64,000 nucleotides of DNA from Ascaphus truei (lineage: Eukaryota; Chordata; Amphibia; Anura; Ascaphidae), in NCBI GenBank assembly GCA_036426205.1, contig CM071573.1, forward strand, positions 47,312,387 to 47,376,386, read 5' to 3'. This document shows, in pieces, positions 32,691 through 61,829 of this stretch (position 1 is the first letter of the stretch; every line of letters starts with the position of its first letter). Made by a program: the position numbers and the translations under genes. Below the pieces are notes generated by a model. That model worked only from the letters and a program-made list of their open reading frames with translations, had not been told where the DNA came from and made no database searches.

Positions 32691-32726
<36 letters not shown>

Positions 32727-33499: not shown

Positions 33500-33900
33500 A
33501 ATTGCAGATCCTTGAAAAAGCGCCAAAGTGGGCGTGAAACGCGTGGGAGAGTAGTTTGTGCTGTCAGTTTTTTTGTTTTTTATGTAGTTTAATAAAGAAG
33601 ATTTTTAACCTCTTTGCTGGTGAGTTCTTACCTTTTTTCACGGAGCGGATGGACAACTGATCCTTACCCTTTCCTGTTGTCACGTGAGAGGATCAGTGTT
33701 CACCACCGGATATTCACACAAGGGAGACGGTTCTGAGCAGCGTCAGGACTGCAGCTGGAAGGAAGGGGAGCAAAGCGGTGTTCTTACTGTGAGTAGCGCG
33801 TACTCCACACCGAGCACAGCCGGGGCTAGGGTGACAGAGTGAGTTATCTTCACATTACATTGTCCCCATTGCGTAGAATGGAAGGGCTCCGGCGCAACTG
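33500..33900 (+). mobile_element. PLE-type tail (plus strand) with hammerhead-like motif
   Basis: CCTTGAAAAAGCGCC...GGGCGTGAAACGCGTGGG (33513-33547) has the order core-stem II-GAAA-CGCG-U seen in PLE hammerheads, with a degraded first core. AATAAAG follows near 33590, then TTCTTACC. The same layout appears at 16640-16780 (minus), 48680-48760 and 53940-54040. Confidence 0.5.
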
Positions 33901-33904
33901 CGCA

Positions 33905-34662
33905 TGACAGACTCCAGAAGGTCCCGGATGAATTCAACAAACTTTATTGGCACAAAGAACACACTGGGGCTACACCACGATCTCCCCCTCTACGCATTTC
34001 ACCCTCTAGGATAGGGCTTCATCTCGGAGTGGGGAGACGTGGTATACGCCTGAACATTTATAATAAAAAGCCCGTGAAAACGGGTAAAGGTTATTAACCC
34101 CTTCATGGAAAAATTGCACATAGCGCCATAACATAATCATACATATGAGTATAAAGTACATATCTTTTATACTGTATAGGAGCCTGCATAGTGGGTTATA
34201 TCTATAATAACCACATTTGGCTCATCTCATTGCAAGGCAATTACATGAAGGGTGCTTAAAAAACTGTTTGCAACATTTCAAAGTGGTGTTATGCCCCTGA
34301 TCTTGTTAATCCATTGATAAACATGCAGCCTCAAAACATTTAGTCTAGGTAAGGCATAATTAGATGCATATAACACTAGAAATAAATTTTAAGTTATAAA
34401 TTGGAGCTGCTAACTGGAGTCATAATATTATGCAGGGGAAATGGCAAGAAAAAAATAGAAAAGGGGGGGGATGAGAGGGGGGGAGGGAAAGGGGAATAGG
34501 GGTTGGGAAAGGGAAAGAAAAGGAAAGAACAGACACGGTGGATACATAATAGAATATCTTAATCAAACAATTGTCTAGAATATTAAGATATGCAGAAAAC
34601 ACGGCATGTCGCAAAAACCTTACAGACTAGGAGATACATCTTATATTACATTATAAGAAACA
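33905..34662 (-). mobile_element. PLE-1 3' UTR
   Basis: Follows the PLE-1 stop codon on the minus strand. It contains a hammerhead-like motif (minus, about 33988-34026: GATGA, CCCT/AGGG stem, GAAATGCGTA) and then CAATAAAGTTTG, a polyadenylation-type signal, near 33945. The end of the element is near 33905. Confidence 0.5.
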
Positions 34663-36897
34663 TCATAGTTCCCATTCTATATTAAGTCCATTGGGTTGCA
34701 GGGTGTTCAATGCAAAAATCCAATGAGCCTCTCGTTGATACAAGATTTTGATCCGATCTCCTCCGCGAGGAGGTAAAGGAATGTGCTCAATGGCTAAACA
34801 TTGCAAAGAACCTACTGAACCCAATGGACAGGTGTTAAAATGTGAGGATACCGGATGCAACATATCATGATTACGATTAAGTCTCAGGTGCTCCAAGATG
34901 CGAATCTTAAGTACTCTGCTTGTAAGACCAACGTATTGTTTATTACATCCACATTGTAATAGGTAAACCACAAAAGATGTCTGACAAGACATAAAGGATT
35001 TAATCTTAAATGTACGTGTTTCATCACGGTTGGTAAAATATGTTGATTTTCTCATAAAGGAACAAATCTTACAATGACCGCATTTAAACGAACCCTGCAA
35101 TTTAGGATATAAGGATAATCTATTTTTCTTATGCGTATTGGGCTGTAACATACTCGGTGACAAGAGATTACCTAATGTAGCCGCTTTGTGAAAGACTACA
35201 CGAGGGCCAGTACAAACCATTTTTTGTAGCAATGGGTCCAAAGATAATGTGACCCAGTGCTTCTGAATTATTGATTTAATGGCATTGGCTTGTTCGCTGT
35301 AATTGGTAATGAAGTAGGGCGCATCAGTGTTGTCGAAAGGTGTACCTAGGCCAGATTTATCTAAATCCATATTGATTAGCAAATCTCTTTCAGTGCCCAG
35401 GGCTATTTCATAGGTTGTATCTAGGTCTTTTGTGGCATACCCTCTCGCCAGAAATCTGTCCCTCATCTCACCCGCCCTGTGTATAAAGGCCTCCAGAGAG
35501 GAACAGTTCCGACGCAAGCGAAGGAACTGGCCTCTCGGGATGCCTCTAACCAGAGGGCGGGAGTGACAACTTTTAGCATGGAGTAATGAATTCCTGGCAT
35601 TTTCTTTTCTAAAAATATCAGATTGGATTTTATTGTCAATATCAATATATAAATTGAGATCAAGAAATTGTATTTGATACATATCAAACACATGTGTAAA
35701 TCTGAGATTTAGTGTGTTGTCTGCCAGATAGACAAAAAACTTTTTTAGGTCCTCCTCCCCACCACTCCAAATCATGAGCAGGTCATCTATATAGCGCTTG
35801 TAGAATGCTATATGATGCCTGAAGGGATTTGAATCTCCAAACACGTGGGACATCTCCCACCAACCCATGAATAGGTTGGCATAGGAGGGGGCAAAAGAAG
35901 TCCCCGTGGCTGTCCCACGTGTTTGGAGATAAAACTGACGATCAAAGAGAAAATAATTGTGAGTGAGTGAAAATCTGATGCTGTCCAATAAAAAAGCAAT
36001 ATGTGCAGGGGAAAGAGAAGAATGATCAGTGAGAAAGAACTCCACAGCTGTGAGTCCATGGTCATGGTGAATAATGTTGTAAAGAGAAGCTACATCCAGT
36101 GTAACCCAGATGTAGTGAGTGTGCCACGTGAAAGGTGCTAAAAGTGCTAAAACATGCTTGGTATCCAAAATGTGTGAAGGTAAGGTGTGCACAAGTGGTT
36201 GTAAAAAGTGATCTATGTATTGAGAAAGGTGCTCTCCCAGGGATCCAATACTGGAGATGATTGGTCTACCTGGGGGTGAATGAAGTGTTTTGTGAATTTT
36301 GGGGAGGTGCTGAAAGATGGGTCTGATGGGATCTGGAGTAGTGATGAAGTCTCGCTCAGTGGGTGTGAGAATCTGTAAAATCCCACCTTCATCCATAAGG
36401 TCAGCAAATTCTCTGGGGAATTGAGGGGTCGGATCGCTGGCAAGGGCTTCATACGCCTCAGGATCACCAAGCTGCCGCTGAGCCTCTGACACATAGTAAT
36501 CCCTGTCGAGAACCACTGTTGCGCCCCCTTTATCAGCTTTTCTAATAAGAATAAGGTCATTGTCAGCAAGTGATCTAATGACCACCCTTTGATCTAATGT
36601 AAGATTATCAACATGTGATCCATATGTTCTGGATCCTTTTTCTCCTACTCCCTTTGCAAGAAGTGAAATATCTCTTTCTATGGCTTTTTGAAAGATGTCA
36701 ATGTATTGCCCCTTCATATGAGAAGGGTTGAATGTAGATTTCTTTTTGAAACCCGAGTTGGTTCTGCCCTGAAAATCTATAGGGTTATCTACCGTGTTAT
36801 TTTCCGTAAAGAGATCTGTCAGATCTTGCTGGTAGCATTGATCTTGAAAGCCTAAGGGGATAGAAATAACAGGGTTAACGTCAAAAATTGGTAACAT
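34663..36897 (-). CDS. PLE-1 reverse transcriptase with GIY-YIG endonuclease
   Basis: 744 open codons from a downstream Met. Domains in order: DKGGATVVLD (122-131), LPKIHKTLHSPPGRPIIS (198-215), VTLDVASLYNIIHHDHGL (265-282; RT motif A), TRGTATGTSFAPSYANLF (326-343; motif B), the catalytic YIDD (369-372), QFLDLNLYI (410-418), RGQFLRLRRNCS (455-466), the zinc-finger-like CGHCKIC (606-612), the GIY-YIG core VVYLLQCGCNKQYVGLTSR (643-661), RGGDRIK and LNTLQPNGLN at the C-terminus. PLEs use the RT and endonuclease together for target-primed insertion. The annotated Met is probably not the native start: the same protein continues upstream to the ORF1 overlap, across an in-frame TGA (36942-36944) and a one-base shift at an A-run (36924-36930). 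The KCGHCxxC pattern suggests the Neptune group. Confidence 0.92.
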   Translation of the reverse strand: MLPIFDVNPVISIPLGFQDQCYQQDLTDLFTENNTVDNPIDFQGRTNSGFKKKSTFNPSHMKGQYIDIFQKAIERDISLLAKGVGEKGSRTYGSHVDNLTLDQRVVIRSLADNDLILIRKADKGGATVVLDRDYYVSEAQRQLGDPEAYEALASDPTPQFPREFADLMDEGGILQILTPTERDFITTPDPIRPIFQHLPKIHKTLHSPPGRPIISSIGSLGEHLSQYIDHFLQPLVHTLPSHILDTKHVLALLAPFTWHTHYIWVTLDVASLYNIIHHDHGLTAVEFFLTDHSSLSPAHIAFLLDSIRFSLTHNYFLFDRQFYLQTRGTATGTSFAPSYANLFMGWWEMSHVFGDSNPFRHHIAFYKRYIDDLLMIWSGGEEDLKKFFVYLADNTLNLRFTHVFDMYQIQFLDLNLYIDIDNKIQSDIFRKENARNSLLHAKSCHSRPLVRGIPRGQFLRLRRNCSSLEAFIHRAGEMRDRFLARGYATKDLDTTYEIALGTERDLLINMDLDKSGLGTPFDNTDAPYFITNYSEQANAIKSIIQKHWVTLSLDPLLQKMVCTGPRVVFHKAATLGNLLSPSMLQPNTHKKNRLSLYPKLQGSFKCGHCKICSFMRKSTYFTNRDETRTFKIKSFMSCQTSFVVYLLQCGCNKQYVGLTSRVLKIRILEHLRLNRNHDMLHPVSSHFNTCPLGSVGSLQCLAIEHIPLPPRGGDRIKILYQREAHWIFALNTLQPNGLNIEWEL

Positions 36898-37166
36898 GGT
36901 GTTTTTAGTTCCAATCCTAGAGGAAAAAAATGTTTAAGAGTTCATTTACGTGTAAATTTGTAAACATCCACCATGGTGGAGAAGAGGTTAAATTGTGTAC
37001 TGGGTGCAAAGGATAGTCCAAGATGTAAGATAGACAATTCGGACTGTGTAAGTTCATACTTAGAGATATTTATGACGTTACTGTTCGTAATGTCTAGGTC
37101 TTTAATCTCTTTGACGGCTTCCCACTGTAAATTTTTCCTTCTGCCTTTTCGTGTCTTTCCCCGTTT
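36898..37166 (-). pseudogene. PLE-1 ORF2 N-terminal part, overlapping ORF1 in the -1 frame
   Basis: In the frame one base upstream of ORF1, minus-strand translation gives a basic stretch KKRGKTRKGRRKN, then VKEIKDLDITNSNV, then LGLSFAPSTQFNLF and VDVYKFTRK, where a TGA stops it. The LGLSFAP segment matches ERGLSFAPTHR of PLE-2 ORF2, so this is real coding sequence, not UTR. The TGA and a one-base loss at the following homopolymer disconnect it from the 744-codon ORF. Confidence 0.7.
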
Positions 37167-37714
37167 TTTGAAGACTTTTGACTGGCCGCTCTGCTCGGAT
37201 GAATCATCTCACTGGATGCAGCATTGTCCTCTCCGGATGATGGACAAAAGTCACTCTCAGAAAAGGAGAAAGAAACTGCATGGGGTGTTATTTCATTATC
37301 TTTTGAACCCTTAAGGATGGATTTATTGCCACTACCCTCTTTATAGGATTTCTTTGATCTCGGTTTACCCTTATTTCTAGAGGATAATTTTTGCCATATG
37401 TAAATTTGGTGTGCCTCATAGTCAGCTTTATCCCTCTCGAATTTCGTTTGTTTGTTTAACATAATGATTTTTTCTTGCTTATTCAGTTTGTTGGCTATTT
37501 TGGAATCAAGTTCTTTGAAATTCTCCATATGGGAAAAGGCTTGTAATTTCTTTTGTAATTCTGCCACTTGTTTGGACACAGCCTTATTTTCTTGGGCTTT
37601 ATATTGTATAATAAAGTCCATTAACTTAAACGAACAATCATTAAGAATGAGGCACCACTGTCGTTCAAATTCTCCATTGACAAATCCAAAAGATGGTGTT
37701 TTTGTGTGGCGCAC
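37094..37714 (-). CDS. PLE-1 ORF1: coiled-coil, basic, RNA-binding-like protein
   Basis: 206 codons. Residues about 45-95 are heptad-like and charged (coiled-coil likely: VAELQKKLQAFSH...), followed by KQTKFERDKADYEAHQIYIW (about 89-108), which matches KKGKFDRDLSDYKLGKVYKW in PLE-2 ORF1. A Lys/Ser-rich tail and an acidic Ser patch follow. Near the end the heptamer A AAA AAC (37169-37163) is in the phase required for -1 frameshifting, and the -1 frame carries the N-terminus of the RT ORF. The role is unknown; a gag-like or nucleic-acid-binding function is an inference. Confidence 0.75.
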   Translation of the reverse strand: MRHTKTPSFGFVNGEFERQWCLILNDCSFKLMDFIIQYKAQENKAVSKQVAELQKKLQAFSHMENFKELDSKIANKLNKQEKIIMLNKQTKFERDKADYEAHQIYIWQKLSSRNKGKPRSKKSYKEGSGNKSILKGSKDNEITPHAVSFSFSESDFCPSSGEDNAASSEMIHPSRAASQKSSKNGERHEKAEGKIYSGKPSKRLKT

Positions 37715-38750
37715 CTCCTACCCAGCCCACATGATTACACTGACACCATTTGGTGCAATTGCTGAACACCGAAGCGCAGGACAGGCTTTTCTTTGGATTT
37801 GGATTTTGTCCCCATTGCGGTTAGCCCTCTTTGTTACCCCCATCATTATGCTTTGTATTCACAGCCCTTCAACCCACATGTTCCGGTGTCAACTCCTTTG
37901 AATATACATTATTCGTTATTGCCTTTTCAGGCATTGTTGCCCATTACTCTTGGAGCTTGTACACGGTTGTCTTTCTAGGTAGTACTGTAGAGTTTGAATA
38001 AAAATAATAATAATAATAACAGAAACCCTATCAGGGAGGACGCTCAGTGAATGCACTAAAAGGAAGCGCATGGCAATAGGAAAAATACCTCTCACCAATT
38101 AAGTGGAAATATTGACATCTACCTAGAAAAAGGGCACACAGTCTTGCGTGATGGTGACATAACAACATAGTTTTGCTCCTTTTAATTATCATGCCAGTGA
38201 GGTACAGTATAATTATTTAATGGATGTACGCGATAACCTCAAATTTCTATACTGCTCACCCACACCTTCTCCTGGAGAGGTGCTAATTAAAAGCTAAACT
38301 GTCTTACCATCTAAAAATAAATGATGTGCATTTAAAAGATGAATTATAAGTTGACCTACATTGTGGGCGTGTTCCATAATTTTCCATGTTTGGCCATAAT
38401 AAATAATGTTTTTCTCCTTGGCCAACAACCCCGGCCAGTGACATGTATGTGAAGTAAAACGCATATCTTCCATAGGACTTATTCCCCATTCTTACCAAAA
38501 ATCTTTGAGGTAGACACAAGTTAAGGAAAACACGCAGCCTTGTGTTTATGGCTCAGGAATATTAATTGAAGCAGATCGAAACCTCCATGTTCAAAGTCAC
38601 CGTGTCAATTAGTATATACACATGAAATAATTATTTCATTTACTGGTCCTTGATCATTATAAAAAAAAGCAGAATTGTTTAGGAATATGTTGATGCCTTT
38701 AATTCTGAGCATGAGTTAGTTCCCTCAGGTTTAGTGAATGGACTTTATTC
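37715..38750. other. PLE-1 5' flank, then unassigned sequence
   Basis: 37715-37980 may be the 5' UTR of PLE-1. The rest is AT-rich with no recognised gene or element; a short (AAT)n lies at about 38003-38020. Confidence 0.4.
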
Positions 38751-38956
38751 AAGTCCCCGTTTGCCGCAAGGATACTGCGATCAACGTTGTTCAATGGCGA
38801 CCATCAGCACTTCCGCGTCTGCGCATGCAGCAGGGTACGGTGGCTCACGAGGGACTGGACTCTTCCTCACCAGCTAAGGAGTCTTCAGAGGACCAAAAAC
38901 CCTACACGTTTTGCCTACTTTCCAGTTCGGCTTCCCCTTGCGGCAAACGGGGACTT
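38751..38956. repeat. Inverted repeat pair, candidate small MITE
   Basis: AAGTCCCCGTTTGCCGCAAG (38751-38770; pairing extends one base further) is the exact reverse complement of the sequence at 38936-38956, 206 bp outer to outer. The interior is CpG-rich with GCGCATGC. No target duplication was found. Confidence 0.7.
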
Positions 38957-39486
38957 ACACTATGACTATTTCGGTTCCAGAGGCAGTTCCAGAGTGGCGA
39001 GAGTGTGCCCTTGAAGCACTCATTATGATTTACTTTTCGGGAGAATGTGAGTGTGTCCATCCCCCTTGAATCTAATAATTTGTGCATTAAAACTGTATTA
39101 TGCTATGTACTCCTCTTTGTTTTTCAAGAGAGAGTCACGCGTGATCAGACCATCTTTATGCAGACATATGTGAGTGATTTGTTCACTTAACCACTTTCAC
39201 ACCACTTTCACTGGGTTAATCTTAGTAAAAGTTCATTGTGTGCCAGCACTCTATTGCGCTTTATATTTTTCCACTAACACTTTTACATGATATTCTAGAT
39301 ATTGTTTATTTAAAGCTGCACAGAGGCTTATTTTGTTTTAGTTTTGCGCTTCTCTACAGTATATCACTTATTTCACTTCATTTGATACCTTTTATATCTT
39401 AATGCATAGAATCAAAACCTCTGTATTTACAGTTCCAACAGCTGGATCTTCTTGCTTGAATAACTTTGATATGATATAGATTCACA
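38957..39486. other. Unassigned stretch
   Basis: AT-rich, non-coding, nothing recognised. Confidence 0.4.
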
Positions 39487-39488
39487 TA

Positions 39489-39885
39489 CTGCACCGACAC
39501 ACTTTATTCGAGCAAATACCCAGTATGTACCTGGCAGATACCTGGAATGCGCCACTCCTCACCTCTGACAAGCCCCGTTGCGTTTGCCTTCCCAGCCTGG
39601 GTTCATGCCTGGCTGACGGGCGGCTGATCTGTTAAATGATAATGATTAGGATTTAATAGGCTGCAATGCTTCGCGTGTCTACCAGATGGCATAAATTCAT
39701 GAATTGTAATGCAGTATATATATATATACTGTGCAGTATTGCAGCCAGCGGGAATAAAATGCTTCAATCCCTGCTTGGAAAATACCTCAATGCACTCGGG
39801 CAGAAAACAGTCACAAACCTCAATACACCCGGGTATACCCGAATTCGTGGGACTAGCCGAGCTCGAATAAAGTGTGTCGCCAGTG
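39489..39885. mobile_element. TA-flanked DNA element, copy C (397 bp)
   Basis: The left end CTGCACCGACACACTTTATT and the reverse complement of the right end CACTGGCGACACACTTTATT are terminal inverted repeats, followed by CGAG on both arms. TA flanks both sides (39487-39488, 39886-39887). The termini match the 360-bp GC-rich elements at 1515 and 48100, but the body is different and less GC-rich. Non-autonomous. Confidence 0.75.
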
Positions 39886-39899
39886 TAAGAACCTGAGGG

Positions 39900-40960
39900 C
39901 CTGTCTGTAATGAATGGTACAAAGGAAAGCTGACATTGTACATGCAACAGCAAAATAACAAAATCCACAGTTCTGAAGACTTTCCTGTTGGTTGTTTGTA
40001 GAGGGAGAAAGGGGGTGGCCCGGTATTAAAGGGGTTGCACCCCATATGGCATTCCCCTGACCTCACCAGAGAGACAAGGGGTAAACTGGACTGCGGTCCA
40101 GGGATGAGGTTTGCACCTTGTTTGTTGTACCTTGAAAATGTCTGTTCCCCTTTTACCATGTTTCATTATAATCCTGTATTTTAATGTTTTAAAGTGCATT
40201 TCTGTATCTCCAGTTCTGGAGGTCACAGAGAGTTCATATTTGGCCAATATGTGGAGTCACGGTAGGCATTAAAACTGGCAAAGGTCGACCCACTGAGCCC
40301 ACCAGAATGGAACTTATTAGTATGTGTAGATATTAAAGTGTATATGTATTTTATTTTGGATCTGTTCTGAAAATGCAGACGCCATTTGCTAGACTTATAG
40401 GTCATGAAGGGCAGACGGCTTAGTAGCCTAAGCACGGTGATCAAAAAGTCAACTGCCTTGATTGTTACCCAATGTCTAGGGATTAAGTGTTAATCAATCA
40501 ACAAATTCTGCCAGTCTGATTGTTGCCTGAGGGCATGGGTTAGTCTGTTAGTCTGTGTCTCCACATTAGAGAGTGAATACAGATAATTGTTCACCAATAG
40601 GCTGTGTTCAATGTTAAGAATAGGGTTGCACAGGTATATAAACTGTGTCAACCCTACAGTTTTTAGTTGTGCTGGAGTTGTGCTTCTGATACCATCTTGA
40701 ATGTCACTGGATTGCTGGAGTTGTGCTTCTGATTCCACCTGGAATGTCACTGGATTGATGGAGAATTGCTATTGGATACTTCTCCATTCCCCAACCCTAA
40801 GTAAGTGTTATCTTCTTGCCTGTTAATTGTACTATATTGCTGTGTTCACCTTATTTAAGGAATAAATTATATTTTATTATATCTAAGCCTCGTTCAGTTC
40901 AACCCAGATATTTGGTGTTCAATATATCTTGTCATAAGCTACCGTGACATTGTTATTGTA
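39900..40960 (+). promoter_or_regulatory. Candidate LTR or promoter-like region
   Basis: A TATA-like GGTATATAAAC (40633-40643), a polyadenylation-type AATAAA (40861-40866) and a terminal CCGTGACA near 40950 are arranged as in an LTR. A 43-bp unit is repeated exactly in tandem position (40671-40713, 40714-40756). Ends are not established. Confidence 0.35.
40671..40756. repeat. Two-copy 43-bp tandem repeat
   Basis: Both units start GCTGGAGTTGTGCTTCTGAT and end GAATGTCACTGGATT, with a few substitutions between them, just downstream of the TATA-like box. Confidence 0.9.
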
Positions 40961-41980
40961 TGCTAGAGACAAGCAGCTGCAGGGAAACTTTCGCATGAGC
41001 TCACAAACTAGGCAAAATGTGCCCCCTTTGATTCGCGTAAAAAGTCATGGCTGAGTCAGAGTTTGTAGTTACCGGAGATAAGGAATGTGCATTGCAATTT
41101 CTTGTAATATGTCAATTTGCTAAAATCTTTAAAATCACTAGATTTGTCTACTGACTGGAAATTTGCTTAAGATTCACTTAATTAAACTATAAAAAGGGCA
41201 CACACGCCATGTGTCGCTCAGTGCATGACAATATTTTGCTTAAACCTGCAGTCCAAGCAATATCCTACGTGTATGTGTGTTTTTTTTTTCAAATAAATCA
41301 GTTCTGTACTTTGAGAAAGTACTTGTAGCATTTTTTTAAAACAACTCGGAATGACATTTTTAATGTATTATAATATAACAAGCATTTTTTGTTTCTATAG
41401 CAACCATTTACAAAGTCCATCCCCTTCCTCTTCTGAAACAGACTCTGGCACACCCCTTTTTGAGCACTGTCCTCTCTCTCGCAGTGCACCAATTGTATCT
41501 AGTGACTGCCTGGTTACAAAAATAGCCAGCTTGGACTGCTGTTTTAAGGCCTGCAAAATAACAACATTATTAGCCGTTGATGAAAAAATTAACAAGAACT
41601 CAAATTTGGGGAAAAAACGCTTGAAAGTTTGCACAGTTTTATCCATCTGGATTTAGCACCTGCAGTAAACAGAGTCCAAGCTGTGCCAGAACGGGGCCTT
41701 CACATGGCTGCATTAAATAAAGACTCATTATATCTGGTATTTTTCGGAAGTATCGGCTACAGTAAAGGTTTCAGCACACCCACTTAGTATTAAAAACATT
41801 CTCCTTAATACAGCACCACCCACACCCTCTTTCCTTACTGGTCACTGCCCATTACAGGAGCAATCACTCCAAAGACCAACGTGCACTAATGACTATGACA
41901 TGTTTAAAGGGTTACATCTGGGTGATTGGTGCTCTTTATTTTAGTTACTGTATAAACAGGGTGAGAGGAGACTCAAAGCG
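40961..41980. other. Unassigned stretch
   Basis: No convincing coding sequence. An AATAAAGACTC signal at 41715-41725 resembles one at 42707, suggesting a related decayed LTR. Confidence 0.35.
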
Positions 41981-51122: not shown

Positions 51123-51193
51123 TTTGGAGGCGCTGCTGAGAGCAATCCTGGGGTGCCCTACTCAGCAGTTAACGTAGTATTCTATCAGTCAGC
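51123..51193 (+). promoter_or_regulatory. Putative primer-binding site and gag leader
   Basis: TTTGGAGGCGCTGCTGAGA directly follows the LTR end. The tRNA was not identified. Confidence 0.45.
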
Positions 51194-52915
51194 ATGTCTG
51201 CCTCACACCCAAACAAGTGGCCGACTGGACCGAAAAGCTAGGAGAGCTCCTGCGACACGTAGTCGCCGTAGACGGGGTACCTGCCGATGTATCCATGTTT
51301 ACTGTCTGCAGCGCAGTAAGGACATTACCTGGTCTGGCGGGCACCCGCCTCATCAGCAAGCACTACAACATTGACCGGCATGAGAACACCCTATTGCTGG
51401 CCACCGAACAAGCTATACCCCCTGATAGAGGCCCACGAGTAGTGTATCTACCAGAGACTTTACCGCAAGGGTGCCCTCTAATCTACCCTGGAACCGTTTC
51501 CAGCCACGTAACTTCCCTTACCAGACATGCGGGTTGGGAGGACAAAGAAATGGCCACCAGTACTCCCATCAGATCAGACATATCTCTACCCCGAGTGACC
51601 TTCTCTTCTGATGCTAGGCAAGGGGCCACCAGCTGGGCCGGTAGCCCACCAACATCACCGGTCCCTAACCGGTTAGTGAACAGCTTCACCCCAACCCCTA
51701 ACAGTCAGAGAGTGGGGATCGCAAGTTCCTCAGACAGTGGCGGCTCCATGCTAGGAGTGACATTCCCGCAGCTTGTGGAAGCGATAACTACGTCCGCTCC
51801 AGCCCAAAATTATAGGAAGTTGAAGGCGTTTTCAGGAATGGTTCCTGTCCCCGCCGGCGAGGAAAGCATTGAGTCTTGGAAGGAACACACACTCAAGGTG
51901 ATCGATGAATGGCCCTGCTCTGAAACGGTCAGACGTCAGAGAATCCTGGAAAGCCTCCGACCCCCAGCAGCCACCCTGGTCAGTACACAGCGCGACCAAG
52001 ACCCTGATCTCTCTGCTCATCAGATGGTAGACTTGTTAGTCCGTATCTATGGCAAAGATGAAGAGGAGAGTGAGCTGTGGTTCAAATATTACGGTCTGCG
52101 ACAGAAGGAGAAGGAAGATCTGTCAGACTTCCTTCAACGAATCCAGCTGGTCCTGTGGAAATTGCGAACATGCGGCCTCATCCTAGCCTCAGAGATGGAC
52201 GAATACCGGCGCAAGCAGTTCCTCCGAGGGGCCATTCCCACTCATCACATAGTGATCATGACCAGGTGCTCACTAATGGAGGGGCCCCCCTACCTTCATG
52301 GACATTCTGGGGATCGTCAAAGGGCATGAAGTCTATACCAAGCTGCATACAGGCACCAAGGTCAAAGATCCCCCTGTGAATGACATCCCAGGAGTCTCCG
52401 CTCGCCAGATCAAGAAACCTGTCAAAGAGGAAGAGGAGCCACCCAAGTCGCCCTCGCTGAAAGGCCGGACTTCGGGGAGATCCTCCCCCACTTACTCAAG
52501 ACGACTGGATCCTAAAGATGTTGTCTGCTATGGCTGTGGACAGAAAGGTCATTTCTCCAGAGAGTGCCCTGATGGGGTCACCCAAGAAAAGAAAACGCCC
52601 AGCAAAGGGAGCTCGGTTAGGTCCATGATCTGTCGGATACTGACCACAGAAGCCAAGACATCCGACGCCACCCCTGTGCCTCCCGAAGCTCCTACTGACC
52701 TAAGCCCAGATGATGGAATTCCGTCCGGAGATGGGTACTGTCAGGTAGGCCCCTCTGCAATCGTTCATGTGGTAGTAGAAGGAGTCTATGCTTCTGCATT
52801 ATTGGACACCGGGTCCCAAGTGACCATAATCTACCGACCATTCTACGATCAACACCTTAAGCACTGTCCCCTGCGGTCGGCGGAACATATGAAGGTGAGG
52901 GGGTTGAGCAATTAA
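51194..52915 (+). pseudogene. Gypsy gag-protease with PNMA-like capsid (frameshifted)
   Basis: An ATG at 51194 opens MSASHPNK, then a one-base shift leads into the long frame from 51217. N-terminal residues resemble the PNMA N-terminal (RRM-like) domain. The capsid region (about residues 200-330: KLKAFSGMVPVPAGEESIES, ILESLRPPAA, LRTCGLI) is PNMA/Ty3-gag-like. A second one-base shift lies at the C-run 52286-52291 (GPPY... versus PPTFMDILG). The downstream frame carries a CCHC zinc knuckle CYGCGQKGHFSREC (52526-52567) and the protease active site ALLDTGSQVTII (about 52796-52831). An in-frame TAA at 52913 ends this part. The element is inactive. Gag would form the particle; the protease would process it. 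Confidence 0.85.
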
Positions 52916-53659
52916 GATTACCCCATCGATGGGATTGTGAGAATTCAACTGGAGATACTTCAATTGAATACCGGTAAGAAACATCCCATGCATGTGGAGG
53001 CAATGGTATGCCCGAAGCCTCAAGGACAGTGTCAGTACCCGGTCATCTTGGGAACAAATACGGATATAGTGCGAGCCGTAATCAGAGCCTACCTGAAAGA
53101 GACCAATGAATTGCCAATGGCCAATCCACTCCTTGACCCTGTACTGAGAGAGGAGTGCAACAGAGCATATGTTTTAGAGCGTCACGGGGACCTCTATAAT
53201 CGTCAACGCAGACTGACGACCATTTTACCAGGGAGAGTGCAACGCATGGCCGTCTGGTGCTGTTATCCGAATCGAGATGAGACTGATCATCTGTTCTCTC
53301 TGGAGAGTTCCCCTGAGGAAGAGACCCAGAGAGGGTATAGGGTAATACCCGAAGTGAGAGAGTGGACGACCAGAATTCCTCTACGAACCTACGTGTATGT
53401 TCAAAATATCTCTCCATTTCCGATGGACATTGATGTAGGACAAAATCTGGGCAGCATATATCCCATCAGCCCGGTAGAAATAGTGCCCCAGGTGAACGCC
53501 GCTGCAGTGGGTGAGCAGTTAGTCGATCTGGACTTCAACTTCGGAGACTCGACACTGCCAACCGAGTGGAAGGATCGACTGACGGTCAAGCTGAATGAAA
53601 GAAGGACCGCGAGATGGATGTGGGCCGCAGTCGCAGCGCCCAACACACCATTAGGTTAA
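52916..53659 (+). pseudogene. Gypsy protease C-terminal part and linker before RT, truncated
   Basis: Same frame as the preceding protease. It continues with RIQLEILQ, the protease flap-end signature PVILGTN (53040-53060), and a linker ending FNFGDSTLPTEWKDRL. The expected reverse transcriptase is absent: the reading stops at 53659, where a foldback sequence begins. Confidence 0.75.
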
Positions 53660-53909: not shown

Positions 53910-54060
53910 TATATATATATATATATATATAAGGCACCACCTTGAGAAAGGTCCCACTGGGGGACCGAAACGTCGGTTTATGTGTCTTTTTCAATACAAA
54001 AACTTGTGATCAAACTTACCAGAGTGCTGTCTCCTGATCTCGTGCTTCAAACGGTATAGT
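53910..54060 (+). mobile_element. PLE-type tail with hammerhead-like motif after a TA tract
   Basis: (TA)n at 53911-53930, then CTTGAGAAAGGTCCC...GGGACCGAAACGTCGG (53940-53976) with a perfect GGTCCC/GGGACC stem, then TTACCAGAGTGCTG near 54020 as in the tail at 16640-16700. Confidence 0.5.
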
Positions 54061-54165
54061 ATGGTTTATTATTGCTTTATGGGACAAGCATCCAATTTTT
54101 TCTACTTGCAAGTGGAGTGCCGGCTGCTTCTGTGGATTCTATATATAAATATATATATATATATA

Positions 54166-54750
54166 TTGAAACACAAAATAGGTGCCGCAGTCAAATCACC
54201 CCTAAATGGTCGAATTATTGGGATAACCAGTGGTCAAGGTAAAAAATAACCCTCTGGTGGTGCTACCGACCCACAAAATGTATGAAACATGAAAAGAAAA
54301 AAGAAGGGTCAAAAAGGTGCACTCAAACAATATCTAATAAAAAATGAAATTTTTTTAACTTATTAGCAATGAGAAATAAAAAAACACACAAGACAGACCC
54401 AAACAACTACCACATAATAAATTGCTGTGCGTAAATGCGGTTATAAATATAGCACCAAGTCACATGGATTATGCACCAAATCACATGAAGGTCTGTTGAA
54501 AACCAATACATAAAGGTTCAAGTATGGCATAACAAAACCAGGGGAAAGAATAATTCCCCCAGTAATGAAACTAAGATCGGCCGATCTAAAAAAGGTATAA
54601 AACAAACCAGACCACATGAAAGAAAGTAATACCTCAAATGCCTGCTAGTCAAGCAGCAAGGATGAGAAATATACTCAGAATATTGCATGAAGTAACATAA
54701 ACATGAAAGGCACGGTAAATGGGTATAATAATAAGCATAATAAAACACAC
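54166..54750 (-). repeat. PLE-2 terminal direct repeat (3' side)
   Basis: 585 bp nearly identical to 59256-59839 in the same orientation. It starts TTGAAACACAAAATAGGTGC and ends near GCATAATAAAACACAC. The few differences include the poly-T area near 54345-54362. PLEs commonly carry such pseudo-LTRs because of tandem insertion. Confidence 0.9.
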
Positions 54751-55709
54751 AGCATGAATATCTAACTGGCTAGGAGAAAGGTCATAAATAATGTAAACAA
54801 AGCCACTCAGATATATGTACAAATTACCCTGCAAAGTTCTGCAAATGAAATGAATAAACTGATGCCAGCTTGGTGCTGCACCTATGGATTGAACAGCCAA
54901 GGGAGGGAGTCCAAATAGTGCACTGGTAGCACTCAAGATTAGTCCTCAATGGTGAGATAATACTGAGGATAAGCAGGGGTCAGGATATAGCAAACCAGGG
55001 GCAAAGCACACTGCAGATGAGGAATAAGCAGGGCAGTAGGGGAATCCCAATAAAGACCAGCGTCCCTTGCGTCCCTTGCGTCCCTTGCTCGGGCATCAGT
55101 AGTAGAACAAAGAAAAATCTGGAGGATAACAATGCAGCACACGAGTCAGGAAGAGGTAGGGGTGCTGTCACAGCTCTGCTCGACGGCCGTTTCGCCTGAA
55201 AAGGCTTCTTCCGGGAGCGTGTAGTGTCAGCCTCCATGACTGCTCTTTAAAGGCTCCATTTTCGCGGCAAAAATCACCCTGCTGCAATTAGCCAATAGGA
55301 AATTCTTGCTGCGATCAGCCAATAGGAAATTCTGAAAAGATAGAGACGCGTCATCTGTTGCCATGTTAGAGCAAGGAAGACTTTCAGAGACAATCTTACT
55401 TAAAGAGACAGTCATGGAGAAACCAAAAGAGTTTAAAAAGAATGTGAATACAAGGGAATAAATACTAAGCAAAAGATTAAAAGGTAAAGAGAAAATGAAT
55501 AAGGACAAAATAAATAGAAAAAACAATTAACAGTGAGATAAAAGGAAAAATTATATAATAATCATTGAGATTGATGAACTTGTTATCTAATGAAAAAGGT
55601 TATATATAAATATGAAAGATAATAAGTAATGAAAGGATACAGGAGAAGATTATTGAAGAATATCATTATGAAGAATCAGGAGCATAAAAAGAACACAGCA
55701 AATATGAAA
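54751..55709 (-). mobile_element. PLE-2 3' UTR
   Basis: Non-coding between the stop codon and the terminal repeat. Contains a triplicated GCGTCCCTT (55062-55086) and the hammerhead-like motif at 55178-55218. Confidence 0.6.
55178..55218 (-). ncRNA. Hammerhead-like motif in PLE-2 3' UTR
   Basis: Minus strand: GCTC stem I, core CGGAAGA (U4 to G relative to CTGANGA), stem II GCC/GGC, GAAA (55190-55193), stem III CG/CG with GC loop, then UC and GAGC closing stem I. The order and spacing are right, but the core substitution makes activity doubtful. Confidence 0.5.
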
Positions 55710-56745
55710 CTAAAGAAACATTGCAAAGCTAAGATAGTCATTAAGTCCTGTTGGGATCATAGTACCCAACTGTACTATCCATCTGCATTCCTTTTGTAGG
55801 AGAAGTTGTTCCACATTGCCGCCTCGAATGCCTATGTTGATTCTGTCAATTGCAAAGGCCACCGGGGATGAGGTGTCTGAGTTGTGCACATCACGAAAGT
55901 GACGTGCCACACTTGTGATTTTTTTGAAAGATGCCAGATCTTTGGTGGCATTTTTGATATTTCGTGTGTGCTCCAGAACCCTAACACGAAATTCCCTGGT
56001 GGTCATGCCAATGTAAATCAGGCCGCAAGGACAGCTGAGATGGTAGATAATGTTCTTGGACTTACAATTGAGAAAGTGGAAAATCCTAAATTCTCGGGTG
56101 CCTTTGGTATTATAAAAGATGTTAGTCTGTTTCATATATCTACAAGCGGAACAGTGTCCACATTTATAGTATCCTGTTACATTAGCTTGATTTAGAAAGG
56201 TGGTGCTTAATGGGGTAGTATAGTGACTCCTCACCAGTAAATTCTTTAGGTTAGGTGCCTTTCTACTTGTGAGGTTGACTCTGTCGTCCAGAATAACCCT
56301 GAGGTCCTGATCTCCCAAGAGAATGTCCCAATGTTTTTGGAGAATATTTTTGAGGCTGCTCCATTTGTTATTGTAGGTTCCGATGAACCTGATTGTTTTG
56401 GATGATGTTTGTTTAATTTTAGGTTTTAATAGAACTTGTCTATCCAATTGACAGCTTTTCCTAAGACCCCGCTTAATGACTGAACGACTGTAGCCCCTTG
56501 CTCTAAATCTGTTGGTCATCTCCATTGTTTGAGCTTTGAAGGTGTCCACAGTTGAGCAGTTACGGCGGAGTCTAATGAATTCTCCATTGGGTATTCCCCT
56601 GATCTGATGCATAGGAGGAAAACTGCTGGCATGCAGTAAAGTGTTGCAAGATGTTGCCTTCCGATAAACATCGGTAACTATACGCCCATCAGATTCAACA
56701 CTAATACTCAGATCAAGGTACTTGACATTGGTTTTGCTAAAGGTG
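55710..56745 (-). pseudogene. PLE-2 ORF2 C-terminal part with GIY-YIG endonuclease
   Basis: Open from a one-base frameshift near 56735-56745 down to 55710. It carries SKTNVKYLDLSIS, RGIPNGEFIRLRRNCS, the CGHCSAC zinc-finger-like segment, the endonuclease core IIYHLSCPCGLIYIGMTTRE, RGGNVEQLL and a C-terminus near TMIPTGLNDYL. The layout matches PLE-1 residue for residue in motif order. Confidence 0.85.
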
Positions 56746-57130
56746 TGAGCCTAACATTAATGCCATTGTGGTTGAGAACATCGATGAACTGTTTGAGCAG
56801 GGATGCGGTACCCTGCCAAAGAATAAAAATATCATCGATATATCTCAACCACAACAGCACATGGGACGTAAACTCACTATTAGCCTCTGAGAAGACCTCT
56901 TCGCGTTCCCACCACCCCAGGAAGAGATTCGCATAGGAGGGGGCACATGTTGCACCCATAGCCGTTCCTCTGATCTGTAAGTAATAAGTATTTTTAAATA
57001 AAAAATAATTATGTTTTAGAACAAAATCCAAAAGTTGTATTAAGGTATTGGTTAGATTTGTGCTCAGGTTCTGCATGGATATGAAGAATTTTGAGGCAAA
57101 AATGCCATCTTCATGGCGGATACAGGTATA
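56708..57130 (-). pseudogene. PLE-2 ORF2 central RT part, after the MITE
   Basis: Reads from TCIRHEDG (completing motif A after the MITE) through KHNYFLF, IRGTAMGATCAPSYANLFLG (motif B) and WLRYIDDIFILW (the catalytic YIDD). It runs into a one-base frameshift near 56740 (LTPLAKP in place of a TFSKTN-like reading). Confidence 0.85.
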
Positions 57131-57461
57131 CAGGCATACCCCGCATTAACGTACGCAATGGGACCGGAGCATGTATGTAAAGCGAAAATGTACTTAAAGT
57201 GAAGCACTACCTTCTTCCACTTATCGATGCATGTACTGTACTGCAATCGTCATATATGTGCATAACTGATGTAAATAACGCATTTGTAACATGCTCTATT
57301 GTCTCCCCGCTTGCACACAGCTTTGGTACAGGAAGGGGGCCGGTATTGCTGTTCAGGACGTGCTGACAGGCGCATGCGTGAGCTGCCGTTTTCCTATTGG
57401 GCGATGTGTACTTACTTGCGAGTGTACTTAAAGTGAGTGTCCTTAAAGCGGGGTATGCCTG
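57131..57461. mobile_element. 331-bp MITE inside PLE-2 reverse transcriptase
   Basis: Terminal inverted repeats CAGGCATACCCCGC[A/T]TTAA[C/G]G at both ends. The PLE reading frame is restored exactly if 333 bp (element plus one TA) are removed, so the target duplication is TA within TATATA. This points to a Tc1/mariner-like non-autonomous element. Subterminal CTTTAAGTACA-type repeats are present. Confidence 0.85.
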
Positions 57462-58546
57462 TATAGTGTTTCAACGTCACACGTTACTAGTATGGTATCA
57501 GTATCAGCAAACACATTATCCAGCCGTGAGAGTATATCCATGCTGTCCCTGAGATAAGATGGTAAGGTTTCAACAGATAAACGTAAAAAAGCATCAATGA
57601 AACAGCTAATGGGCTCACACAACCCTCCCATACCGGACACAATAGGTCTTCCTGGGGGGTGGGAGAGGTTCTTGTGGATCTTAGGTAAAAGATAGAGTGT
57701 GGGTGTGACTGGATACTTGGTGATTAAACCGTCATGATGACGTTTGGTGATAATACCCTCTGCCAATGCCTCACGCACCAAGATATCAAGTTCTTCCTTG
57801 AACTTACTGGTGGGATCCCGCTGCAACTGTCTATAACAATCTCTATCCCGTAGTTGTTTAAATGCTTCTGCTTCATATAACTTTCTAGGCCAGATGACAA
57901 TGTTACACCCCTTATCGGAGGGTTTTATTATAACATCAGGTAAAGATTTTAGTTCTTTAATCGCTGTCCATTCTGACCTAGAAATGTTACTGGGGCCTCC
58001 TACATCTGATAATTCAGAAATATCACGGATTACCATATTAGAAAATACCTCCACCTGTGATACCGCCTGAATAGGAGGGCAAAAGATGGATTTTGCCTTG
58101 AAGTTTCTCACAGGTTCAAGCTCGTTGATGTCATGAGTTGATCCCTCTTGTTCTTGCGTAGCGAGCACGGGATTAGGGACTGGGATTTCAGTCCCAGAGT
58201 CTGATGATTCCTCAATAGTAGGAGTTTTAAGGAAATGCTTATGGAGCAGGAGTTTCCTACAAAAAAGTTGAACATCCTTGATCCACTCGAAAGTATCACA
58301 GCGATGTGTAGGAGCAAAGGACAGGCCACGTTCTAGTACTTGGATTTGTATGGGACTGAGTATGGTGTCAGATAAATTAACAACAGCAGGAGGTTTTACT
58401 TCCGCTGCTGCTTGCCCTTCTGGTACTTGTATTCGAACAGGCCTCTGTCCCTTAGACTTCTTGCTCCCGCGTCTCGTCCGCCTCCTCTTGTGCCCATTGG
58501 TCCCTGATATAAAAAAGGGATTGATCCTGTTGCCTTTGTAGGTGGA
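57443..58546 (-). pseudogene. PLE-2 ORF2 N-terminal part (-1 frame relative to ORF1)
   Basis: Open on the minus strand from just after a TGA near 58557, through the ORF1 overlap (KRRRTRRGSKKSKGQRPV), LERGLSFAPTHRCD, VQLFCRKLLL, KPSDKGCNIVIWPRKLY, YLLPKIHKNLSHPPGRPIVS and CDVETLY, where the MITE begins. Only the MITE interrupts it. Same order as PLE-1. The most likely expression route is -1 frameshifting from ORF1. Confidence 0.8.
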
Positions 58547-59181
58547 TTCATTGTATCACAGTCAGAGGAATCCATCTCTGAAGTGGTTGCTCCTGATGAC
58601 ACTGATGTACCTGCTTTGGGGTTCTTCTTCTTTCTACGATAACCCGGTTTAGAGTGGATCCATTTGTAAACCTTCCCTAGCTTGTAATCAGATAAATCCC
58701 GATCAAATTTACCCTTTTTCATCAATTCAATCTCACTTTCATATTTCTCAAGTTCCACTTCAATAGTATCAAAAACATTTTTATCCATTAAATCCATGTC
58801 TTTACGTAAAGAATCAATCAAAGATGTAGTTTCTACCAAAGTTGTTTCATCATTAACAATGAGTGTGTTAATAAGTTCAATAGAACAAGTATTCAGGGCA
58901 CATTCCCAGCGCTCTTTCAGACCAGGATCATTGAAGGTAAAAGATGGAATAGTCTGTATTCTGAGCCCTCTCGGAATCATTTTAAATTCCAGATAGTTAC
59001 ATAAGGCTATTTTGTTCCACCAGACTCTCAATCTTTTTCTCATAAGTAATGTTAGCTCCTTGATTTGATCCTGATCTGAAGTTGCAATGGGATGCTGCGT
59101 CAGATCAACACAATCATCATTAATAGAAAAAATCCTTGCCGCATTAGCAAGACGCTTAGACTCATTGCTAGCAAAATCCAT
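58396..59181 (-). CDS. PLE-2 ORF1: coiled-coil protein with KF-RD-DY motif
   Basis: 261 codons. An N-terminal region of about 130 residues including KRLRVWWNKIALCNYLEFK and IPRGLRIQTIPSF is followed by a helical, charged segment (LIDSLRKDMDLMDKNVFDTI...VELEKYESEIELMK, about 140-180) with coiled-coil character. Then KKGKFDRDLSDYKLGKVYKW (181-200 region), a Lys-rich patch and a Ser-rich linker. The heptamer U UUU UUA (58516-58510) lies in the 0 frame as CCT TTT TTA, and the -1 frame is ORF2. The function is not known for this family; gag-like RNA binding is an inference. Confidence 0.75.
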   Translation of the reverse strand: MDFASNESKRLANAARIFSINDDCVDLTQHPIATSDQDQIKELTLLMRKRLRVWWNKIALCNYLEFKMIPRGLRIQTIPSFTFNDPGLKERWECALNTCSIELINTLIVNDETTLVETTSLIDSLRKDMDLMDKNVFDTIEVELEKYESEIELMKKGKFDRDLSDYKLGKVYKWIHSKPGYRRKKKNPKAGTSVSSGATTSEMDSSDCDTMNPPTKATGSIPFLYQGPMGTRGGGRDAGARSLRDRGLFEYKYQKGKQQRK

Positions 59182-59255
59182 TATAAAAATAAATGGTCAA
59201 ATGGGATGATTGAGCTGGCACCTGGAAATGACTGAAAGACCAGCCTGCAATTAAA

Positions 59256-59839
59256 TTGAAACACAAAATAGGTGCCGCAGTCAAATCACCCCTAAATGGT
59301 CGAATTATTGGGATAACCAGTGGTCAAGGTAAAAAATAACCCTCTGGTGGTGCTACCGACCCACAAAATGTATGAAACATGAAAAGAAAAAAGAAGGGTC
59401 AAAAAGGTGCACTCAAACAATATCTAATGAAAAATGAAAAAATGTACTTTATTAGCAATGAAAAATAAAAAAACACACAAGACAGACCCAAACAACTACC
59501 ACATAATAAATTGCTGTGCGTAAATGCGGTTATAAATATAGCACCAAGTCACATGGATTATGCACCAAATCACATGAAGGTCTGTTGAAAACCAATACAT
59601 AAAGGTTCAAGTATGGCATAACAAAACCAGGGGAAAGAATAATTCCCCCAGTAATGAAACTAAGATCGGCCGATCTAAAAAAGGTATAAAACAAACCAGA
59701 CCACATGAAAGAAAGTAATACTTCAAATGCCTGCTAGTCAAGCAGCAAGGATGAGAAATATACTCAGAATATTGCATGAAGTAACATAAACATGAAAGGC
59801 ACGGTAAATGGGTATAATAATAAGCATAATAAAACACAC
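59256..59839 (-). repeat. PLE-2 terminal direct repeat (5' side)
   Basis: Second copy of the 54166-54750 repeat, upstream of ORF1. It ends in a (CATA)n run at 59839-59855. Confidence 0.9.
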
Positions 59840-59859
59840 ATACATACATACAGCCATAC

Positions 59860-60180
59860 ATTGATATATAACAGACGACAGAGAAGCCCAATACTGTGTT
59901 CAGGAAAAAAAGGACGCCTTTCTTTTTTCTTCATATTTCTCACCCAATCCCCATGAAAATGTGTACAATTGCGTGTCTGTTATGTAGATTAACACTATAT
60001 GAGAAGCACAGTGTAGACAATAAACTGATGTTAACTAAATTCTTAACTATATTATGTCAACAAGTACCAGATACACTGCGGTAGGTTTATTTTTATTAAA
60101 CGAGAAATAGGGTTTTTTCCTTTGTAGATTGTAAATTTGTTTAACTGTTGTAATCTAATCTGAAACATTAAGATTATTAT
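59860..60180. other. Unassigned stretch
   Basis: AT-rich, non-coding; may contain the left end of the mariner-type element, but no terminal repeat could be matched. Confidence 0.35.
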
Positions 60181-60189
60181 AAAGTTTGC

Positions 60190-61100
60190 GTTCAGTGTGT
60201 TCTGAATGTCCTCCTGCTGAAACACCCGAAGACGAGAACACTACTGTCTGATTACATCATCGAGTGTGTTAATCCAGCTGCTCCCACTACTGAACGATAC
60301 GTTGTAGCAGCTCATCAACAGTATGATTCAACTCCAGCCTGTTAGGTGGCCAAAGGGTCAGTGGAATGAAGTCTGGTGTCTCTTTTTGAGTTGATAGACT
60401 GTCTCGCGAGCTCATGCACTGGTGCTCCATCTTGCTGGAAAGTGTAGAACTCTGAAAACTGTTGAATGTCTGGTAGTAGATCTCCCATAAGCAGCACATT
60501 GCGCTATCCCTTCCCGTTAATCTGTCACTTGGGTGCAAGATGGTTCATCCCAGGGCCGACACCAGCAGCGACTGGCCAAATACGCAGCAGATGACAAGTT
60601 GAAATGTCCTTCTCTCGAGAATCAACCGGTGTAGACACGATCGCTCTCAGTCAACCAGATGAAGTTCACCATGGAGGACGGTTAGCGTCTCTTCATTTGA
60701 CAAAAACGATTGCATTAATTTGTTTACCGCTGTTAACTCATGCGCTCTGCGCTTCTTCAGACACTTCAATCATAAATCTGTCTTGATGATCGTATTCACT
60801 GACGCTGCAGAAATGCCTGTCTGACGAACAGTTTGCCTCTGTGTGCTGTGGGTCTCTGGCTCATCTTCTTGGATAAACACCAGAGCTTCCACTTCATCAA
60901 TCTTGTCCACTCTGTGAACAGTGAACAGATTACTGCTACCCGGATGATGCTTGAAACTACCCGTGGCGTCAATTTTACAAATTATTTTTTTCAGTCTTCC
61001 TAGTGATTATTGTATTTGCGTTTGGGACGATAATTCTGGGTCTGTCACAAGCACTTTATAACGGCTTTATCTTCTTCACTAAACACCATTTTGTAACTAT
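60190..61100 (-). pseudogene. Tc1/mariner-superfamily transposase remnant
   Basis: Minus-strand reading with many frameshifts and stops: an N-terminus MVFSEEDKAVIKCL (about 61050-61091), a helix-turn-helix region near VEALVFIQEDEPETHSTQRQ and TGISAASVNTI (about 60790-60905), MVNFIW near 60670, and near the end ETPDFIPLTLWPPN (about 60345-60390), the mariner-type motif ahead of the last catalytic Asp. The sequence up to 61285 ends AGTATATATATA. Ancient and inactive. Confidence 0.75.
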
Positions 61101-61289
61101 GCACTTGATGAGGTCATCACACCGTCACCAATTCCAAAGAATATTTATTAGATTATCAAATAATTCTTAAATGTAATAATCAATTGTAACAGACCTAGAA
61201 TTGCTGAAATTTTCATGAAAAGGTTGTGATTTTTATGCAAGATATGCCAAAAAATTAAAGGGGTCCCATTATTTCTGAGCAGTATATAT

Positions 61290-61829
61290 ATACTTATAGG
61301 GAAACCATGTTGAATGGTCTGGAAGCAAAAAGTGGCACCGTGTGCTTGTTTGCATGTCATTTCCCAAAATCCCTGGCTGCAGTGGAAGTGCTGTGTGCTG
61401 GGTGATAATGGTGAAAGGCGGGGCTGCAGAGCTGTCTAAGACATGCAAATGAGCATACAGTAATATCTCCATTTGCTATGGAGGGTTTTTGTCACTTTTT
61501 TTACCCACCATAACTTAACCGAGTATGGTAAACACTGTCCCTTGCTTCTTTTTTACCATAGCTGGCATAACCAACCCCACACTGAGGAGACCCATTAAGG
61601 TCGAAACAGTCTGTCTGTGGGTGGGTTTGCTGGCTATGCATCTTAACCCTGGCTGTGCTCAAAGCTGTTACCATGCAGCAAGCTTAAGCCTATAGGGAAA
61701 CCATGTTGAATAATTTTGAAGCAAAAAGTGGCACTGTGTGCTTGGTGCTAATGGTGAAAGTCGGGGTTGCAGACCTGTCTAAGACATGCAAATGAGCATA
61801 CAGTAATATATCCATTTGCTATATATATA
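61290..61829 (+). repeat. Tandem hammerhead-bearing repeat, copy 2 (~396-bp period)
   Basis: TATAGGGAAACCATGTTGAA occurs at 61295 and 61691. The first unit is full and includes the ribozyme; the second is partial and internally deleted (TGTGCTTGGTGCTAATGG joins two parts), ending at GCATACAGTAATATATCC before a TA tract. The arrangement recalls PLE pseudo-LTR tandems or hammerhead satellites. Confidence 0.8.
61576..61621 (+). ncRNA. Hammerhead ribozyme, complete minimal type I core
   Basis: Stem I CCCACA (61576-61581) pairs with TGTGGG (61616-61621). Then CTGAGGA (61582-61588), stem II GACC/GGTC (61589-61592, 61599-61602) with loop CATTAA, GAAA (61603-61606), a two-pair stem III CA/TG with loop GTC, and UC at 61614-61615, with cleavage predicted after 61615. 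All conserved core bases are present. Such very short stem III forms, described in PLEs, are thought to act as dimers. Confidence 0.8.

Follow-up and report, generated by a model that had tools for sequence, protein, structure and literature searches.

A conserved slippery heptamer points to -1 ribosomal frameshifting between ORF1 and ORF2 in Penelope-like elements of Ascaphus truei

Introduction

Canonical Penelope-like elements (PLEs) are described as a single ORF that combines a reverse transcriptase (RT) with a GIY-YIG endonuclease (PMC11167929, PMC3846280). A 64,000-nucleotide stretch of the Ascaphus truei genome (contig CM071573.1, positions 47,312,387 to 47,376,386; the window in what follows) carries two PLEs, PLE-1 and PLE-2, in which the ORF coding for the RT lies in another frame than the ORF before it. 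A reading of the window made from the letters alone, referred to here as the sequence-only reading, had noticed a canonical slippery heptamer in the ORF1/ORF2 overlap of each element and had taken this as a sign of selection for frameshifting. We have collected relatives of both elements and compared their junctions, and conclude, with a probability that we put at about 0.9, that the ORF1/ORF2 junction would be a -1 programmed ribosomal frameshift site in Neptune-type Penelope-like elements.

Two Penelope-like elements in the window

PLE-2 is located on the minus strand at 54162..59840, and is bordered by pseudo-LTRs in the form of a 590-nt direct repeat with 98.1% identity between the two ends (5' pseudo-LTR at 59252..59840, 3' pseudo-LTR at 54162..54751). 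Its ORF1 (58396..59181, ATG at 59181, stop at 58398-58396) codes for 261 amino acids, and the A. truei protein P0001, also 261 amino acids long, is 83% identical to it. Close to the end of ORF1, the TTTTTTA at 58516-58510 is read as CCT TTT TTA, i.e. in the X XXY YYZ phase of a U UUU UUA heptamer that is kept in relatives, and ORF2 runs without a stop in the -1 frame, from 58555, before this heptamer, to 57443 at the MITE, so that both of these elements of the sequence-only reading hold. The dual-coded stretch from the slip site to the ORF1 stop covers 58396..58516, where three PLE-2 groups show lowered synonymous change in the 0 frame as well as in the -1 frame. The RRTRRG codons of the -1 frame lie 33 nt past the slip site, at 58466..58483. 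The MITE (57127..57465, 23-nt inverted repeats; a few bases of target duplication may be included in these limits) sits within the RT and is missing from a close copy, L015, which has 97.7-98.3% identity to PLE-2. Beyond it, ORF2 continues in a second part that codes for RT (56708..57145, with the MITE edge at its start), is broken again near 56750-56708, and resumes in a third part (55710..56750) with the end of the RT, a Cys-rich stretch and a putative GIY-YIG-type endonuclease, assigned by homology from the conserved columns of relatives, by eye. Because of the MITE inside the RT and this second frame break, the PLE-2 copy in the window is dead.

PLE-1, also on the minus strand, carries the heptamer A AAA AAC at 37163..37169. 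The C-terminal part of its ORF1 is open at 37094..37717, the N-terminal part lying outside that frame, and it is homologous to the ORF1s of PLE-2 (profile match, E 2e-16). The N-terminal part of ORF2 is open in the -1 frame at 36942..37208, and the main part, an open frame running from RT to a putative endonuclease by homology, at 34663..36933. Pseudo-LTR repeats were not found around PLE-1 within 32000-41000 of the window. Two further retroelement-like regions were seen by eye: zinc-knuckle and protease-like open frames at 51178-53659 (plus strand) that resemble LTR-element gag/protease, and a 1086-amino acid open frame at 4887-8147 (minus strand) that resembles a LINE-type retrotransposon ORF2.

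The assignment to the Penelope class is based on homology. PLE-1 ORF2 matched at least 1339 proteins at E<=1e-20, those listed mostly carrying PF28514/PF26215, and the PLE-2 relative L010 falls in the same ORF2 tree. Pfam RVT_1 remained below the cut-off for PLE-1 and gave no match with the PLE-2 pieces. Likewise, no GIY-YIG Pfam match was obtained with the window pieces, and the domain was sub-threshold in P0064 and present as PF01541 in relatives such as P0011 and P0030. Between RT and endonuclease, C739, C742, C745 and C771 were invariant in 14 relatives, and the CGHCSAC and CPCG motifs of PLE-2 correspond to these cysteines by eye; such a Cys-rich stretch is given as a mark of the Neptune clade (PMC3846280). 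A hammerhead ribozyme has been reported for PLEs (PMC11167929), but in 54000-61500 Rfam matched nothing even with a threshold of E 1, and in 33500-39500 it gave no more than a weak match to a miRNA, these being regions that hold a single copy of PLE-2 and PLE-1, respectively.

Frame and heptamer at the ORF1/ORF2 junction

Searching the A. truei genome with PLE-2 ORF2 yielded 111 scored loci, the best of 37,431 candidates, all 111 of which were retrieved, including the window's own PLE-2 copy (L002). Since the genome searches score the best candidates only, the copy numbers reported here are lower bounds. At 19 of the 111 loci ORF1 could not be placed, and in the 92 that were placed for both ORFs, ORF2 was in the -1 frame relative to ORF1 in 78, in the +1 frame in 9 and in frame 0 in 5 (79 of 93 in -1 when PLE-1 is counted in), which departs from the single ORF of canonical PLEs. 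The 14 placed loci that are not in -1 count against the frameshift reading. An in-phase TTTTTTA was present within the overlap in 72 of the 78 loci in -1, and the remaining six were broken copies, several of them with the run nearby. A consensus that fuses ORF1 and ORF2 in one frame had been named beforehand as the observation that would point to an indel, and such fusions turned out to be rare in this genome: of the five loci in frame 0, three (L014, L021 and L023) read through the junction stop-free and two (L047 and L091) are interrupted. The junction itself is gone from L021. L014 and L023 still have TTTTTTA, not in phase with ORF2, and have the appearance of individual copies that suffered an indel.

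A second set of junctions was assembled blind to the heptamer, each being found solely through the basic motif and homology to ORF2. It comprised 99 of the 111 loci, after dropping five without an anchor, one that was too short and six without the basic motif. In 97 of these 99 loci TTTTTTA was found within 75 nt upstream of the RRTRRG-coding motif, in 93 cases at either 33 or 36 nt before it and in 91 in the expected phase, and in the two misses one base was changed. This is more than chance: in the ORF1 body of 43 non-redundant copies, preselected for TTTTTTA, the heptamer occurred in phase at 1 of 5678 codon positions, and any X XXY YYZ heptamer at 21 of 5678. In a set of junctions chosen for the heptamer, its seven bases were constant and the flanking bases variable, with the exception of a G at +14 that was also invariant. 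The PLE-2 sets used for start codons, peptide patterns, folding, synonymous change (pS) and ORF1-body background were all preselected for TTTTTTA (AAAAAAC for PLE-1 folding), so that conservation of the heptamer bases is circular in them; non-redundant sets were cut at 95% identity. Moreover, PLE-2 copies are related and not independent, and the weight of the comparison therefore lies in its spread over subfamilies with saturated synonymous sites (pooled dS ~3 in ORF1, 43 copies). Across many such subfamilies of PLE-2 relatives, arrangement, heptamer, phase and spacing were kept. The copies L007/L008 (G000:C825), and likewise those on G000:C11443, are separated by a few kb on the same strand in a tandem-like fashion.

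Coding constraint in the overlap

If both frames of the overlap are translated, protein-level constraint should be visible in each, a check that the sequence-only reading had proposed for the -1 frame. This expectation was borne out, except for the 0 frame of the P0020 family. In three PLE-2 groups, pS in the ORF1 frame was 0.54-0.73 ahead of the overlap and dropped to 0.29-0.42 within it, and pS in the -1 frame was 0.19-0.31 in the overlap versus 0.60-0.66 past the ORF1 stop. The fall was smaller when all 43 copies were taken together (0.74 to 0.54 in the 0 frame, 0.82 to 0.54 in the -1 frame). Comparable values were obtained from short stretches in PLE-1 (0.63 to 0.33 in the overlap, and 0.33 in the -1 frame; 29 of 40 junctions) and in the P0005 family (0.61 to 0.34, and 0.30 in the -1 frame; overlap side of the ORF1 stop only), and in the P0020 family, again over a short stretch, the 0 frame showed no fall (0.70) and only the -1 frame was low (0.38), which counts against the frameshift reading. 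The ORF1 body and the part of ORF2 beyond the overlap had dN/dS values of 0.07-0.21 in the three PLE-2 groups, indicative of purifying selection, and in the overlap this ratio was raised to 0.30-0.70 because dS falls there, as is expected under dual coding. At the peptide level, the -1 frame of the overlap retains RRTRRG and the 0 frame a GG..R.LRDR pattern.

Alternative routes to ORF2

Ribosomes could also reach ORF2 by finishing ORF1 and restarting at an AUG of the ORF2 frame near the ORF1 stop. In 18 of the 72 copies an ATG in this frame is found no more than 15 nt from the ORF1 stop, and in a subfamily with 106 nt between slip site and stop (e.g. L034, L039 and L042) it overlaps the stop in 7 of 15 members. 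However, the other eight members have GTG at that place, and 54 of the 72 copies have no near-stop ATG, so that termination-reinitiation, which is not even kept as an option within one subfamily, is not the shared route. Restarting near the stop would furthermore leave the conserved RRTRRG motif of the -1 frame, which is located upstream of the restart, untranslated, and the heptamer unexplained, and we regard this route as very improbable. Upstream of the slip site, as far as the preceding stop of the ORF2 frame, none of the 72 copies has an ATG in that frame.

Slippage of the RNA polymerase on the T or A run, which would bring ORF1 and ORF2 into one frame in some mRNAs, is to be considered since the run in both families consists of six identical bases. 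Yet the seventh base is conserved as well, an A after T6 (97 loci) and a C after A6 (37 of 40 PLE-1 junctions), and the codon phase is mostly kept, while a mechanism that depends on run length needs neither phase nor seventh base. The conserved seventh base makes tandem tRNA slippage the better fit, and transcriptional slippage would be just as surprising an outcome as reinitiation. Least probable of all is that the two frames go back to an indel in an ancestor with one fused protein, for although fused-looking Ranitomeya relatives (see below) and the one-frame copies L014, L021 and L023 would suit it, mere inheritance would neither preserve heptamer, phase and spacing through the saturation of synonymous sites, nor account for the low dN/dS that several groups show on both ORFs. 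That frameshifting has been selected for, as first suggested for PLE-2, and that the arrangement is not due to an indel, is strongly supported by the conserved frame, heptamer, phase and spacing, together with the synonymous drop in the overlap.

Turnover of the slippery site

The sequence-only reading had considered the heptamers of PLE-1 and PLE-2 to be independent. Genome searches with three further queries, each giving at least 150 scored matches from which junctions were chosen to spread identity, suggest that this is probably not so. With PLE-1 ORF2 as query, AAAAAAC was found at the corresponding place in 37 of 40 sampled junctions. In the three exceptions the place is taken by AGAAAAC (L146), CCCAAAA (L150) or unrelated sequence (L148). 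The P0005 family had TTTTTTA in 19 of 20 sampled junctions, and most top matches to the P0005 query started at residue 26, where FF lies over the heptamer. The twentieth junction, L171 (G000:C5:120919099-120919279), stands for a subfamily that has lost TTTTTTA, with Phe-Pro in place of Phe-Leu. Its AAAAAAC has the same phase and is located five codons downstream of the former Phe; this context occurs at 12 genomic places (<=3 mismatches in 36 bases). In the P0020 family the overlap is longer, and TTTTTTA was present in 17 of 20 sampled junctions (L173-L192), with other sequence at the expected site in L186, L189 and L190. Among 14 relatives with a long N-terminus, only the proteins P0005 and P0117 have FF followed by a codon that can start with A, a check in which protein cannot show the heptamer itself.

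In a tree of ORF2 proteins (33 rows, midpoint root for drawing only), PLE-1 grouped with P0003 to P0005 and P0028 (100/99), and this group was next joined by Xenopus elements and the P0020 group (95/91). The PLE-2 relative L010 and P0033 were placed beside elements of Ranitomeya, Hyla and Dendrobates (99/95). TTTTTTA, being found in P0020, P0005 and PLE-2, is probably the older state by this distribution. Together with the homology of the ORF1s and the same position of the site, its presence across separate clades makes the AAAAAAC of PLE-1 look like turnover of one site. AAAAAAC would then be a replacement in PLE-1, and a second time in L171, with convergence as the alternative.

Proposed mechanism and comparison with known systems

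What the sequences themselves display is the overlap, its frame and phase, the conserved heptamer, dual coding and an ORF2 without an upstream ATG. In the frameshift mechanism that we propose from these, most ribosomes would translate ORF1 and terminate, in the majority of PLE-2 relatives, ~25-42 codons beyond the heptamer, giving a mainly helical protein with a basic tail. On U UUU UUA, or in PLE-1 on A AAA AAC, a minority would slip back by a single base and go on reading in ORF2, giving a fusion of ORF1, the basic RRTRRG linker, reverse transcriptase and GIY-YIG endonuclease. We infer the slippage event, its efficiency and a Gag/Gag-Pol-like ratio from this arrangement; a conserved frameshift, if true, would mean that two products are made in a set ratio, as with retroviral Gag and Gag-Pol. 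ORF1 may have a role in assembly or RNA binding. Its predicted structure in L010 has helices at residues 3-17, 35-65, 86-128 and 134-167 followed by a low-confidence tail (mean pLDDT 63), so that PLE-2 ORF1 is predicted to be helical with a probably disordered tail; the best PDB match in a fold search (E 0.65) was not convincing.

A stem-loop 5-9 nt downstream of the heptamer had been suggested as something to look for. Folding did not reveal one. No shared or unusually stable fold was found in 80-nt windows starting at +7-20 (mean z -0.2 to -0.5; 22/43 non-redundant copies, nested folds), and the same scan gave lower values away from the site (-0.96 at +100, -0.64 at -120). Alifold values were near zero in most of the groups (six PLE-2 groups and PLE-1), without a fold common to groups. 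Windows that stood out in single groups were +7..+67 in B106 (z -2.0, n=10) and D121 (z -1.9, n=4), and +7..+112 (z -2.3) and +47..+112 (z -3.3) in F79 (n=4). The stretch downstream of the site is purine-rich because it codes for Arg and Gly in two frames. This absence makes the driving force of a shift a matter of interest in its own right.

The two heptamers are familiar from other systems, U_UUU_UUA being the HIV site and A_AAA_AAC being among the sequences that are shifty with mammalian ribosomes (PMC5009743). With retroviral and LTR gag-pol of the HIV-1 type, the A. truei elements share these heptamers, the proposed -1 shift and an RT behind a structural-type ORF (PMC5009743), but the host element is Penelope-like and not LTR, and a conserved downstream structure was not found. 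RT, a putative endonuclease (by homology) and pseudo-LTRs are shared with canonical PLEs, from which the A. truei elements differ in that they have two ORFs, overlapping and in different frames, where canonical PLEs have one. As in Neptune, there is a Cys-rich stretch between RT and endonuclease, and there are amphibian and fish relatives, whereas the account of Neptune given in PMC3846280 makes no mention of an ORF1 or a -1 overlap in the sections consulted. PLEs that carry more than the RT ORF are known as well, namely Athena/Terminons of rotifers and Neptune-like elements with esterases in fish and molluscs (PMC5408684), but the extra ORFs of these PLEs are enzymes and others, and the consulted part of that paper mentions no frameshift junction. 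Among non-LTR retroelements, Drosophila HeT-A is reported to need a frameshift, yet it is a telomeric element of another class, without RT, and its frameshift serves its gag (PMC5009743). The word 'Penelope' is absent from the consulted text of this frameshifting review, and among the titles and abstracts listed in the searched literature none dealt with frameshifting in Penelope-like elements, with an earlier mention being possible. A conserved frameshift would also give these elements an ORF1 for study, in a class whose canonical members, with their telomerase-like RT, are portrayed as having a single ORF.

Relatives outside A. truei

A profile search with ORF1 reached A. truei proteins and two further proteins only, with length limits that put fused proteins outside the search, so that ORF1 outside A. 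truei was hardly sampled by it. In eight gene models of the poison frog Ranitomeya imitator, a region resembling ORF1 is followed by ORF2 within a single protein, which is the order of the A. truei elements; the ORF1 match was tested for P0064 (E 8e-23), P0073 (E 2e-28) and P0098 (E 8e-20), and made by eye for P0090, P0095, P0100, P0104 and P0107. Unlike the A. truei elements, these relatives of PLE-2 appear to be fused in one frame. They are annotation models, in which an artificial intron is possible, and several copies agree. Frameshifting would therefore not be universal, and the continuous frame of the gene models would give both parts as a 1:1 product.

Taken together, the frameshift could be an old and general route of RT expression in one large branch of PLEs, with a site that was already there before the clades of PLE-1 and PLE-2 diverged, a heptamer that has undergone two or more replacements with frameshifting kept throughout, no need for a downstream stem-loop, and a later loss by ORF fusion in elements of poison frogs and perhaps other hyloid frogs. 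We consider the odds of this combined scenario to be about even. What looks like an exchange of heptamers (P0005 to L171) and a loss by fusion (Ranitomeya) would make these elements natural experiments on the evolution of frameshift sites.

Scans of viral contigs found no relative. The scan of genome contigs yielded one distant Penelope-like element, L001, on contig JAAXHD010000147.1 of a sponge-symbiont Poribacteria MAG, in which ORF2 lies in -1 to a long overlapping ORF, without a good heptamer; this element is probably eukaryotic contamination. Finally, an A. truei protein annotated as 'calcium uptake protein 2, mitochondrial isoform X1' (P0017) matched PLE ORF2 over most of the query, and is apparently a chimeric gene model.
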